Origin: Nitrospirae bacterium CG2_30_53_67
Lineage (GTDB): Bacteria > CG2-30-53-67
NCBI GenBank assembly: GCA_001873285.1
Contig: MNYV01000170.1
Span: forward strand, 1 to 6,290
Reading direction: 5' to 3'
DNA length: 6,290 bases
The translations under genes and the position numbers were made by a program. Below, one piece after another: positions 1-3,135 of this stretch. Positions within the stretch are counted from its first letter, which is position 1, and each line of letters starts with the position of its first letter. Below the pieces are notes generated by a model. The model had not been told where the DNA came from. It searched no databases and saw only the letters and a program-made list of their open reading frames with translations.

Positions 1-149
1 AAGTGCTAAAATCATAAGGGGCCGAGGATTATAGGGTCCAAGGGTTCCAGTGTTTTTCTCTGAAGATTTTGCTTGCGTTTCAGTATCTCACTTGAACCCT
101 TGACCCCTCGACCCCTGGAACCCTATGGATCTTCAACCCTCGAACCCTT
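1..149. repeat. Intergenic octamer-armed repeat element, left copy (downstream of miaA)
   Basis: This is a non-coding repeat element built of three parts. Positions 16-47 hold four 8-bp units in one orientation (AAGGGGCC, GAGGATTA, TAGGGTCC, AAGGGTTC). Positions 53-88 hold an AT-rich core. Positions 94-149 hold seven contiguous 8-bp units in the opposite orientation (GAACCCTT, GACCCCTC, GACCCCTG, GAACCCTA, then one decayed unit, CAACCCTC, GAACCCTT). The inner arms AAGGGTTCCAGTG (40-52) and CACTTGAACCCTT (89-101) are imperfect inverted repeats, 11 of 13. Positions 1-15 match a second short spacer found in the other copy, so the element probably continues past the window edge. The last octamer ends one base before the miaA stop codon. 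I see no ORF in it. A mobile, MITE-like or structural-RNA origin is inference; the repeat architecture is seen directly. Confidence 0.85.
94..149 (+). repeat. Tandem array of seven degenerate octamers
   Basis: Seven head-to-tail 8-bp units with consensus GAMCCCTN keep perfect 8-bp phase: GAACCCTT 94-101, GACCCCTC 102-109, GACCCCTG 110-117, GAACCCTA 118-125, TGGATCTT 126-133 (decayed), CAACCCTC 134-141 and GAACCCTT 142-149. Transcripts of miaA would enter this array directly after the stop codon. A period of eight is not a multiple of three, so the array is not a protein repeat. Confidence 0.85.
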
Positions 150-150
150 T

Positions 151-1122
151 TTACCCACTCGATGGGAGAAGAACCAAATCATTCAAATTCTTTTGAACAA
201 GATGGATCAATATTTCAAGTGAATTCTCAAGTGATCCGGAGGTCCCGATGTCCAGCCATTGGATTCTCGGTTCAGCCTTGAACCAAGTCATCTGGTGTTT
301 GGCGAAATGGCGGGTCTCCTGTTTTAAGATCTCAACCGACTGGTTCAGGGTTATTTGCTTTTTTAGATACGGGAGGATTTCCTTATAGCCCAGCCCCTGC
401 ATGGAAACCGAGTCCATGGGGACCCCCATTTTCAGGAGGTTTTTGACCTCATTGACCAGTCCCATCGCAATCATCCTGTCCACTCTGTTTTCGATATTCA
501 GGTAGAGGCGATTCCGGCTGGTTGTGAGACCGATCATGATGATCCGGTACTCTTCTTCTCTTATCTCCTTCTCCTCCTTCTGCAAGACGGAGATCGGTTG
601 TCCTGTGATCTCAAAGACCTCGAGCGCCCGGATCAATCGCCGTTCATCATTAGGATGGATTCTGTTGGCAGACTCCGGATCCACTCCTTTTAACCGTCCA
701 TATAAGGCATTAGAGCCTTCCTTTAAGGCCAAATCTTTAAAGCGCTTCCTTAAGTCGGCGTCGGCCTCGGGTCCCTCAAAAAGACCATCGGTCAGGGCGC
801 GGATATAGAGGCCGGCGCCGCCGATCACCAGGGGGATCTTCCCTGCATGATGAAGCGTTTGAATCACGGCATCGGCATCCTTTTTATATCGGCCGACGCT
901 GTAGGCCTCCGTGGGATGGACAAAATCCACAAGGTGGTGCCGTACAAGGGACCGATCCTTGAGCGTGGGTTTCCCTGTCCCGATATCCATATATTGATAA
1001 ATCTGCATGGAATCGGCGCTCACGATCTCCGTGTTCAGGCGCTGAGCCAGCCTGATGCCGTGTTCAGTCTTGCCCACGGCTGTAGGGCCGACCAGAAAGA
1101 GGATGGTTTTTTTAGAGCTCAT
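151..1122 (-). CDS. miaA: tRNA dimethylallyltransferase MiaA
   Basis: MiaA transfers the dimethylallyl group from DMAPP to N6 of adenosine 37 in tRNAs reading UNN codons, giving i6A37. The 323-residue product is close to the usual 310-320. Visible motifs are the P-loop GPTAVGKT (12-19), SADSMQIYQYMDIGTGKP (35-52) with the expected catalytic Asp, HHLVD (62-66), GGAGLY (101-106, usually GGTGLY), the DERRLIRALEVFEITG segment, QGLGYKEI and a C-terminal KHQMTWF. The frame is open to 1209, but I start at ATG 1122-1120: it has GGGGAG 8 nt upstream and places the P-loop at the normal distance from the N-terminus. The longer starts (ATG at 1149 or 1209) add non-family residues, and the longest begins inside the repeat element. 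The gene follows mutL in the same direction after a 243-nt gap, and both flanks carry inverted copies of one repeat. The assignment is secure; the Thr-to-Ala change in GGTGLY is the only odd residue noted. Confidence 0.96.
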   Translation of the reverse strand: MSSKKTILFLVGPTAVGKTEHGIRLAQRLNTEIVSADSMQIYQYMDIGTGKPTLKDRSLVRHHLVDFVHPTEAYSVGRYKKDADAVIQTLHHAGKIPLVIGGAGLYIRALTDGLFEGPEADADLRKRFKDLALKEGSNALYGRLKGVDPESANRIHPNDERRLIRALEVFEITGQPISVLQKEEKEIREEEYRIIMIGLTTSRNRLYLNIENRVDRMIAMGLVNEVKNLLKMGVPMDSVSMQGLGYKEILPYLKKQITLNQSVEILKQETRHFAKHQMTWFKAEPRIQWLDIGTSGSLENSLEILIHLVQKNLNDLVLLPSSG

Positions 1123-1130
1123 CTCCGGAT

Positions 1131-1136
1131 CTCCCC
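1131..1136 (-). promoter_or_regulatory. Ribosome binding site that sets the miaA start
   Basis: GGGGAG on the minus strand lies 8 nt before the ATG at 1122-1120. The upstream alternative ATG at 1149 has only an AGGGA almost touching it. This supports the 323-residue MiaA over the longer readings. Confidence 0.65.
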
Positions 1137-1161
1137 GATGTTTTGTCATTTCCCTGTCTAC

Positions 1162-1190
1162 TCTATACCCTGCTATATAGCTTTGTACAA
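1162..1190 (-). promoter_or_regulatory. Possible sigma70-type promoter for miaA
   Basis: On the minus strand, TTGTAC (1190-1185) and TATAGA (1167-1162) are separated by 17 nt and would start transcription about 30-35 nt before the miaA ATG. The -10 matches consensus at 4 of 6 and the -35 at only 3 of 6, so the call is weak. It lies in the AT-rich segment between the repeat element and the gene. The -35 is part of a perfect palindrome, TTTGTACAAA (1182-1191), which could instead be a protein binding site. Confidence 0.3.
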
Positions 1191-1191
1191 A

Positions 1192-1347
1192 TAGGGTCCG
1201 AGGGGTCAAGGGGCCAAGGGTTCAAGTGAAATACTGAAACGCAAGCAAAATCTCCAGAAAAAAAAACACTGGAACCATAGGACCCTTGACCCCTTATGTT
1301 TTTAGTACTTCACTTGACCCCTGGAATCCTTGACCCCTTGACCCCTT
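1192..1347. repeat. Intergenic octamer-armed repeat element, right copy (between mutL and miaA)
   Basis: This is the inverted counterpart of the element at 1-149. It holds four octamers at 1192-1223 (TAGGGTCC, GAGGGGTC, AAGGGGCC, AAGGGTTC), an AT-rich core at 1229-1266 with a run of nine A at its right end, and three octamers in the opposite orientation at 1272-1295 (GAACCATA, GGACCCTT, GACCCCTT). A second short spacer (1296-1315) follows, then four more octamers at 1316-1347 (GACCCCTG, GAATCCTT, GACCCCTT, GACCCCTT). The arms AAGGGTTCAAGTG (1216-1228) and CACTGGAACCATA (1267-1279) pair imperfectly, and the next octamers outward pair at about 7 of 8. As RNA or single-stranded DNA this would give a long stem with a loop of about 40 nt. 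It has no coding capacity. It fills most of the mutL-miaA gap, ending 18 nt short of the mutL stop. Confidence 0.85.
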
Positions 1348-1365
1348 ATTTTTCACCACTGGTTA

Positions 1366-3135
1366 CTATTTTCTCTGAAAACGCTTTTCTATCTCATAAA
1401 GGTCGATCCGGATCATGGTGGGCCGCCCGTGTTCACAGGTATGGGGCGAATCGGTCTCCCCGAGGTCTCGGATCAGTGCCTCCATTTCTTCACGGCTCAG
1501 ACGTCTGTTGGCCTTGACCGCGGCGCGGCATGAGAAGACATGGATGATATCTTCCATGCGCCGGTCAAGTTCTCCTCCCTGCTCCAAGGCGACGATCTCT
1601 TCCAGAAGCGATCGGACGATCTCCTGGATATCCATGTCCGCGACCCACATGGGAACTCCTTTGACCGAAAAGGTTCCGCGGCCGAAGTCCTCCACCTCGA
1701 TTCCAAGACGGCGAAGGGTTTTTAGGTGTTCTGCAAGGAGAATCCTCTCCTTCCCTGAAAGTTCCAGATTCACCGGGATCAGGAGCTGCTGTACGGGTAT
1801 CTTCGATAGCCGATAGACCTGTTTGAACTTTTCATACAGGATCCGCTCATGGGCCGCGTGCTGATCAATCAGGATCAGGCCGTCCCTGTCCTGCGTAATG
1901 ATGAACGAGTCTGCGATCTGTCCCAGCGGGACCAGGCGCTCCTTATCGAAAAGGGCTCGGACTGCCGGAGCGGGCTTCCCCGGTTCCGGCTGTATCCTGC
2001 CGGTGAAGGCCGGCCTTCCAGTCGTTCGTTCTTCATGGAACCTATGTTCTCCTGCCGTCCGGAGGTAGCTCTCCACGGCCTCTTTGACCCTCTCCACACG
2101 TTCGGAGGCCGGCCATGGGGAGGGCCTCTCATCTTCCTGCGCGCGTCCGTATCCCTGCGCGGTCTTCCGGACACTGTCCCGTGTAAAATCGTGGATCCTT
2201 TTAGGATCCGTGAATCGGACCTCGCGTTTGGCGGGATGGACATTCACGTCCACCAGGGCCGGGTCCACGTCCAGAAACAGGTAGACCAGCGGATGTCTCC
2301 CCTTCATCAAAAGGGTTTCATAGGCCGCATAGACCGCATGCCGCAGGGTACGGTCCGATACCGGGCGGCGGTTCACGAAAAAGCTTAATCCTGTCCCCGA
2401 TGGTTTTGTAAATCCGGGGATCGAAATCAACCCGAAGAGGCGCAGCCCTTCCCTCCCCTCCTCCAGTTCCATGAGGTTCCCCCTTGCATCCTTGCCCAGG
2501 AGCTGAACTGAGCGTTCAAGGATGGAGGAGACCCCTGGCGATTTGATCAGGGTCCGGTCGTGGTGCTTGAGAGTGAAATAGACGCCGGGATGGGCCAAGG
2601 CAGTCTCGGTCATGATTCCCGTAATATGGGAGAGTTCGGTTTCCCTGGATTTGAGAAACTTTCTTCGTACGGCGGTATTGTAAAAAAGGCCGCGAACCTC
2701 CAAGGTCGTTCCCCTGCCCCGTCCTGCGGCGCGTACATCCTGGATTTTCCCTCCCTCGATCAGGATCTCGGAACCCGAGGACGGGTTCCCGTCCGAGGTC
2801 ACGATCCGCACCTTGGAGACCGAGGCGATACTCGGGAGAGCCTCCCCTCGAAACCCGAGGGTGGCGATCTTATCAAGATCGCAAAGCTCCTTGACCTTGC
2901 TGGTGGCATGGCGTTCAAAGGCGAGAAGCGCATCGTCGCCGTTCATGCCGCATCCGTTGTCCTGCACGCGGATCAGCCGGCATCCCCCTTCCTCCACCTC
3001 CACGGAGATATCCGTGGCGCCGGCGTCCAGGGAATTTTCCACCAGCTCCTTAACCACCGAGGCGGGACGTTCAACCACCTGGCCGGCGGCGATCTTGTTG
3101 ATCAGTTCATCCGTTAATATCCGTATCTGCCCCAT
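1366..3135 (-). CDS. mutL: DNA mismatch repair protein MutL, endonuclease-type
   Basis: MutL couples mismatch recognition by MutS to strand incision and removal. The 589-residue product has an N-terminal GHKL ATPase with ELVENSLDAGA (30-40), DNGCGM (59-64), GFRGEAL (94-100), GTTLEV plus LFYNTAVRRKFLK (142-162), FVNRRP (253-258) and VDVNVHPAKREVRF (295-308). A charged, proline-rich linker at about 325-395 follows. The C-terminal domain starts near 400 and shows DQHA-x2-E-x4-E (424-435), QQLLIP (449-454, the usual beta-clamp-binding position), SCRAAVKAN (535-543) and CEHGRPT (567-573). These last motifs mark MutL proteins that nick DNA themselves, unlike the MutH-dependent E. coli protein. I start at ATG 3135, which gives the family N-terminus MGQIRIL; a purine-rich GGAAAGGA lies 11 nt upstream. 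A TTG 45 nt earlier is in frame but adds non-family residues. The gene sits between yihY (73-nt gap) and miaA. Confidence 0.97.
   Translation of the reverse strand: MGQIRILTDELINKIAAGQVVERPASVVKELVENSLDAGATDISVEVEEGGCRLIRVQDNGCGMNGDDALLAFERHATSKVKELCDLDKIATLGFRGEALPSIASVSKVRIVTSDGNPSSGSEILIEGGKIQDVRAAGRGRGTTLEVRGLFYNTAVRRKFLKSRETELSHITGIMTETALAHPGVYFTLKHHDRTLIKSPGVSSILERSVQLLGKDARGNLMELEEGREGLRLFGLISIPGFTKPSGTGLSFFVNRRPVSDRTLRHAVYAAYETLLMKGRHPLVYLFLDVDPALVDVNVHPAKREVRFTDPKRIHDFTRDSVRKTAQGYGRAQEDERPSPWPASERVERVKEAVESYLRTAGEHRFHEERTTGRPAFTGRIQPEPGKPAPAVRALFDKERLVPLGQIADSFIITQDRDGLILIDQHAAHERILYEKFKQVYRLSKIPVQQLLIPVNLELSGKERILLAEHLKTLRRLGIEVEDFGRGTFSVKGVPMWVADMDIQEIVRSLLEEIVALEQGGELDRRMEDIIHVFSCRAAVKANRRLSREEMEALIRDLGETDSPHTCEHGRPTMIRIDLYEIEKRFQRK

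Follow-up and report, generated by a model that had tools for sequence, protein, structure and literature searches.

The two inverted repeats that bracket miaA at one end of a contig of Nitrospirae bacterium CG2_30_53_67 are, with high confidence, non-coding mini-transposons of the ISL3 type, that is, elements with ISL3 ends that would be moved in trans by an ISL3 transposase. In this reading, copy 1 was inserted at the end of miaA, copy 2 is an older insertion, and the octamer arrays in their interior are the remnant of a separate unit. What had been suspected to be a switch is thereby explained by two ordinary insertions of transposons; one of these altered the end of a conserved gene, at a site whose empty state can still be read back. 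The pair at miaA is itself ordinary transposon biology, and the ISL3 miniature inverted-repeat element (MITE) with an octamer interior is a new form; the more interesting lead, rather than the pair, is a recurring association of four-helix-bundle genes with inverted repeat arms.

The repeats at miaA belong to a dispersed family

The stretch analyzed here (the window) is the entire contig C170 (6,290 bp) of a 2.36-Mb genome assembled in 183 contigs. The resident gene between the two repeats is miaA (tRNA dimethylallyltransferase; positions 151–1119, minus strand; PF01715, E = 1.8e-87), whose same-genus orthologue has no flanking elements, and its upstream neighbor is mutL (1366–3135, minus strand; PF08676 and PF01119). 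Positions 50–126 match 1191–1267 in inverted orientation over 77 nt with 90% complementarity, and a weaker outer match (46 nt, 76%) pairs 1–46 with 1265–1310. A previous sequence-only reading had described this inverted similarity, with an identical core at about 65–86 and 1231–1252, octamer arms, and miaA as the sole gene enclosed, all of which was confirmed. It had located the repeats correctly and drawn them too narrowly, as copy 1 extends to position 175 and past base 1, the contig end, and copy 2 spans approximately 1191–1361. No Rfam match was found anywhere in the window, so that neither repeat corresponds to a known family there and no rRNA was matched.

When window positions 1–149 were used to query the genome, more than 40 full or partial core matches were recovered on many contigs. 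Five matches were full-length at 94–100% identity, copy 1 included, and copies 99% identical to the query were present at other sites. The genome sequence was read in stretches surrounding such matches. The octamer pair GACCCCTNGACCCCT, allowing one mismatch, occurred 332 times compared to 2 for the reversed control. Alignment of copies with their flanks placed the element ends outside the octamer arms, with GGTTCTTCTCCCATTTAGTGGGTAAAA at the left and the reverse complement of GGATCATCTCCAAAAGAGTGGGTGAAAA at the right. With up to three mismatches this end pattern was found at 188 places in the 2.36-Mb genome and at none for the reversed control, which excludes chance, and the size of the repeat family was estimated at about 90 copies. 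Forty-three complete elements of 125–409 bp were cut out, a set to which the sister species G001 contributes a few and which includes an apparent assembly artefact on C47. Apart from gene fragments the elements are non-coding, and none holds a transposase gene. At two mismatches or fewer, 175 ends were counted in this genome and 27 in a same-genus relative; among the 193 genomes searched, such ends were otherwise present in two only, at 4 and 1 places. The repeats at miaA are not a unique pair, both being members of this dispersed family. The genome-wide count of copies proposed in the sequence-only reading thus yields a multi-copy family in which neighboring pairs elsewhere are often direct.

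Two candidates were discarded along the way. A 1.39-kb stretch of contig C108 between two right ends was taken for an autonomous copy and proved to be two separate elements around one gene, which from its protein we take to be deoxyhypusine-synthase-like. The C47 element, with two right ends and flanks that mirror each other, was considered an artefact of assembly. Some elements have an extra hairpin insert beside the core (L025, L145, L170 and L167; for instance CCCCGTTAGAGAGACGAGCTCTCTAACGGGG). A second small repeat, AAGATGCCTCAGTGTAGTAGCCGTCGCAGACGGC...GCGTAACCC, lies within the octamer arms at L010, L027, L030, L061, L141, L161, L173 and other loci, and also at L121 in another genus; in the copies read it always follows a CCC within an octamer, as if targeting the array. 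Many contigs of this assembly (G000) start or end within the repeat family, and the assembly was apparently broken largely by these elements.

Target duplications and terminal repeats point to ISL3

Exact 8-bp direct repeats flanked 10 of 42 complete elements, and in a further 10 the flanks matched at seven of the eight positions. Permutation of the flanks gave a mean of 0.34 exact 8-bp repeats, with a maximum of 2, and no other length between 2 and 13 showed any excess of exact repeats. Roughly every second complete copy had poor duplications, as would be expected of old insertions. The duplicated 8 bp were 85% AT, compared to 58% further out. Insertion points fell within an open frame of 100 codons in 2 of 24 cases, and random flank positions within frames of 60 codons in 717 of 940, a comparison that is indicative since the thresholds differ. 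These figures suggest that the family targets AT-rich, mostly intergenic DNA.

We took the combination of GG-ended inverted repeats and AT-rich 8-bp duplications as pointing to the ISL3 family, in which ISPpu12a is listed with 8-bp repeats (PMC4133298). ISL3 transposases are present in members of the bacterial family. The same-genus relative carries a truncated one (NF033550, 203 bits) with GGGTCTTCTCCCAAACGAGTGGGTAGGAA just upstream, and the Ca. Manganitrophus plasmid CP114560.1 encodes an intact one, 76% identical in protein to the truncated form. The insertion sequence on CP114560.1 has the ends GGATCTTCTCCAAAGTGAGTGGGTAAAA and GGCTCTTCTCCCAAACGAGTGGGTGAAA and an 8-bp duplication, ATTCTTTT. 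The end consensus of the repeat family agrees with these ends and with the end at L204, identifying them as terminal inverted repeats of ISL3 type. Because both the ends and the 8-bp duplications match those of an ISL3 insertion sequence, the window elements are classed as ISL3-type MITEs. They share ends and duplication length with ISL3-family insertion sequences such as ISPpu12 and that on CP114560.1, but have no transposase gene and measure only about 125–409 bp. Like the prokaryotic MITEs known as Correia elements and TIMEs, they are short, multi-copy, non-coding and mostly intergenic, with IS-like ends and a stable RNA fold (PMC4133298); unlike those, they have ISL3-type ends and an interior of inverted octamer arrays.

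No ISL3 transposase was found in the genome of the window itself. The gene has possibly been lost, or it may be hidden by a gap in the assembly, many contigs of which break off within these repeats. We infer that an ISL3 transposase acting in trans was the mover of these copies and would have generated the 8-bp duplications at target sites that are AT-rich and mostly intergenic.

Copy 1 at the 3' end of miaA

The window holds positions 1–175 of copy 1 (minus strand), and the remaining 68 bp correspond to C87:120–187, for a full length of 243 bp. Contig C87 starts with the reverse complement of window positions 1–119, to which it is identical, and runs through the right end of the element into AATGATTT. 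In the window this octamer stands before the left end, at 176–183 (AAATCATT on the plus strand, AATGATTT on the minus strand); its second copy is at C87:188–195, and among the right ends of the loci read it follows that of C87 only. Read together, C170 and C87 give a complete 243-bp element with AATGATTT at both sides. The join passes through a repeat, and its basis is the matching duplication, the reading frame and a downstream motif. It is supported by this motif, a 24-bp sequence found 3' of miaA in four members of the bacterial family, because on C87 it lies approximately 110–120 bp beyond the element.

At the occupied site, the miaA frame enters the left terminal inverted repeat of copy 1 (GGTTCTTCTCCCATCGAGTGGGTAAAAA; 148–175, minus strand; no mismatch to the end pattern), which encodes the last residues and the stop of the present gene, so that MiaA ends in ...QKNLNDLVLLPSSG*. 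Removal in silico of the element and one duplication restores a C-terminus of ...QKNLNDFK*; MiaA of the same-genus relative ends in ...AEKNLEI*. As reconstructed from the two contigs, the present stop codon is apparently supplied by copy 1, which would have inserted into the final codons of the gene so that its natural stop was replaced.

The sequence TCCGATAAGATATATTATGTTAACTT is conserved 3' of miaA in four members of the bacterial family (C87 about 304–339, L296; L124:1802; L066:84; L067:1289). By comparison with the dif sequences of B. subtilis and E. coli, it resembles an Xer dif site; copy 1 is situated between miaA and this dif-like sequence.

Copy 2 and the origin of the inverted layout

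Copy 2 (1191–1361, plus strand) is a degenerate remnant in which the octamer arms and core are kept, the left end is lost and the right end is worn (TTTTTCACCACT), a few bases from the native mutL stop at 1366–1368 (about 5 bp away). Without clean ends, a target duplication of its own cannot be shown, and we regard it as a probable older, worn insertion between mutL and miaA. Comparison of the mutL–miaA gap with that of relatives, as the sequence-only reading had suggested, showed both sites to be empty in the same-genus relative (L124), where the gap is approximately 70 bp and the element is present on neither side of miaA. Among the possibilities raised in that reading, two insertions of a non-autonomous element is the one borne out, by the multiple copies, transposon-type ends, 8-bp duplications and empty sites.

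Copy 1 is 97% identical over 243 bp to a complete copy on another contig, and only about 86% identical to copy 2 over 176 alignment columns; the pair was therefore not born of a local duplication. From the mean spacing of some 90 elements in 2.36 Mb, we estimate that a handful of close pairs are expected, half of them inverted. The inverted layout around a single gene may thus be the outcome of many insertions in random orientation.

Alternative explanations for the pair

An inversion switch, in which the two inverted copies would recombine and flip the 1.1-kb miaA segment, had been put forward, and their 77-bp inverted arms at 90% could indeed serve homologous recombination. We nevertheless give it very little weight: the copies are dispersed genome-wide with neighboring pairs often direct, copy 1 is nearer to the copy on another contig than to its partner, miaA retains its native orientation relative to mutL, and no recombinase gene was found in the window. 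That miaA is the cargo of a composite transposon or of a captured cassette, also suggested by the presence of a single gene between inverted copies, has practically no probability left, refuted as it is by the mutL–miaA order common to the bacterial family and by relatives that carry miaA without the elements, the same-genus one with both sites empty. In addition, copy 2 has a degenerate outer end and copy 1 bears its own pair of duplications.

The intergenic position and strong folding of the repeats, in a genome that does contain Y1_Tnp genes, would also fit repeats of the REP/BIME type, whose mover is a Y1 tyrosine transposase associated with REP sequences (RAYT). To our knowledge, Y1 (HUH) transposition does not duplicate its target, so the clear 8-bp duplications refute the ISL3-ended copies as RAYT products. 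Moreover, the Y1 genes on contigs C120 and C136 follow another repeat and have no octamers nearby, and the one on C101 has an octamer element about 1 kb away but none at its ends, which makes this explanation extremely improbable. The two Y1 genes at the ends of C120 and C136 (L062 and L063) are broken, and each follows copies of AATAGGGACAGCGCCCATTTTTACTTGACTTCACA. It is also very unlikely that the tandem-octamer arrays spread to serve as sites bound by a global regulator, the role proposed for the paired hepta- and octanucleotide arrays (classes 1–3) of Geobacter metallireducens (PMC2700814). Opposite-strand array pairs do occur in dozens of intergenic places, with the same geometry as the published classes, but mobility accounts for the transposon ends, the target duplications and the decaying gene fragments. 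A secondary regulatory use of some copies is possible.

Octamer arms and four-helix-bundle fragments in the element interior

Turning to the interior of the ISL3-type elements, the RNA is predicted to form an extended stem (−90.5 kcal/mol, z = −6.75 for a complete copy; z = −6.0 for copy 2). Fragments of genes for the four-helix-bundle family PF05635 ("S23/IVP") were detected at about nine places, either between octamer arms or next to them; the two copies in the window have no such fragment. In several elements the PF05635 frame, as read from the sequence, starts with a GTG that immediately follows one arm and runs into the other arm, where it stops. In the sister species one fragment is enclosed by ISL3 ends (L235), and the octamer-armed remnant of a distant genome lacks such ends (L230), from which we distinguish two layers: an octamer-armed four-helix-bundle unit and, in this genus, the ISL3 ends around it. 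The inverted octamer arrays around the core may accordingly be viewed as the collapsed remnant of a separate gene unit, later enclosed by ISL3-type ends, an order of events that we infer from these two arrangements. An intact PF05635 gene on contig C159 was considered as the parent copy and rejected, as it lies inside another gene and has no octamers. This gene (L187; C159:7881–8195; TIGR02436) is contained in a longer open frame, which traverses it in a different frame, and no octamer arms were found around it.

A similar arrangement is known from the 23S rRNA intervening sequence of Coxiella burnetii, where the S23p ORF occupies the loop of a stem formed by terminal inverted repeats (PMC4990558). 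Some of the present elements retain fragments of a four-helix-bundle ORF between inverted arms. They differ from the intervening sequence in their tandem-octamer arms, fragmentary ORF and ISL3 ends, and in their location, since the window copies lie between protein genes and not in 23S rRNA.

PF05635 genes between inverted arrays in other genomes

The DNA upstream of PF05635 genes was compared with the reverse complement of the downstream DNA, with the 99th percentile of cross-locus pairings as cut-off. Inverted arms above this cut-off were found at 15 of 29 PF05635 loci from many genomes and at none of 41 miaA control loci, the former being a small sample biased towards what the searches returned. 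Loci on named plasmids, mostly cyanobacterial, passed the same test in 8 of 14 cases. Most arms repeat every 7 or 8 bp, and their sequence differs at nearly every locus (bracketed units at L215–L258 and L282–L295).

At five sites on related cyanobacterial plasmids, the armed unit is cleanly present or absent. In Calothrix brevissima it lies between an integrase gene and the next gene, with 507 bp absent in relatives at 88–90% identity. Nostoc C052 and N. edaphicum carry it after a TraM-like gene, where it is absent in Nostoc C057 at 94–96%, and N. edaphicum has another between nrdB and nrdA that is absent in Calothrix NIES-4105. In one Nostoc operon the unit entered at two different gene junctions, and at several polymorphic sites it lies between the stop of one gene and the start of the next. 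On these alignments the armed four-helix-bundle unit looks like a mobile unit, and presence/absence polymorphism between closely related plasmids makes its mobility directly testable.

We tentatively propose, with a confidence somewhat short of even, that PF05635/TIGR02436 genes within inverted, locus-specific 7–8-bp arrays constitute a class of small mobile elements that spans phyla, has not been described and targets gene junctions, with the 23S rRNA intervening sequence as a special case and the octamer-armed MITE cores as collapsed remains carried by ISL3 ends. The pattern may explain both the scatter of S23/IVP genes in bacterial genomes and the opposite-strand pairs of heptamer or octamer arrays between genes. 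Filamentous cyanobacteria harbor heptanucleotide tandem arrays (STRR) in intergenic DNA; these are intergenic like the window elements, but built on 7 bp rather than octamers, and no link of STRR to a bracketed gene was found in the open-access literature. The arrays of G. metallireducens resemble those described here in their tandem 7–8-bp repeats, opposite-strand pairing and variable distance, and the text reporting them makes no mention of four-helix-bundle, S23 or MITE (PMC2700814). No paper on ISL3 MITEs, on these octamer sequences or on S23/IVP genes with hepta- or octamer arms was found in the open-access literature. The pattern may also bear on a possible past mobility of the rRNA intervening sequence, an idea that PMC4990558 attributes to Ralph and McClelland 1993. 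On plasmids of Anabaena sp. 90 (L284) and Pseudanabaena galeata (L291), a four-helix-bundle gene lies between cas6 and cas4, with different repeat arms in each.
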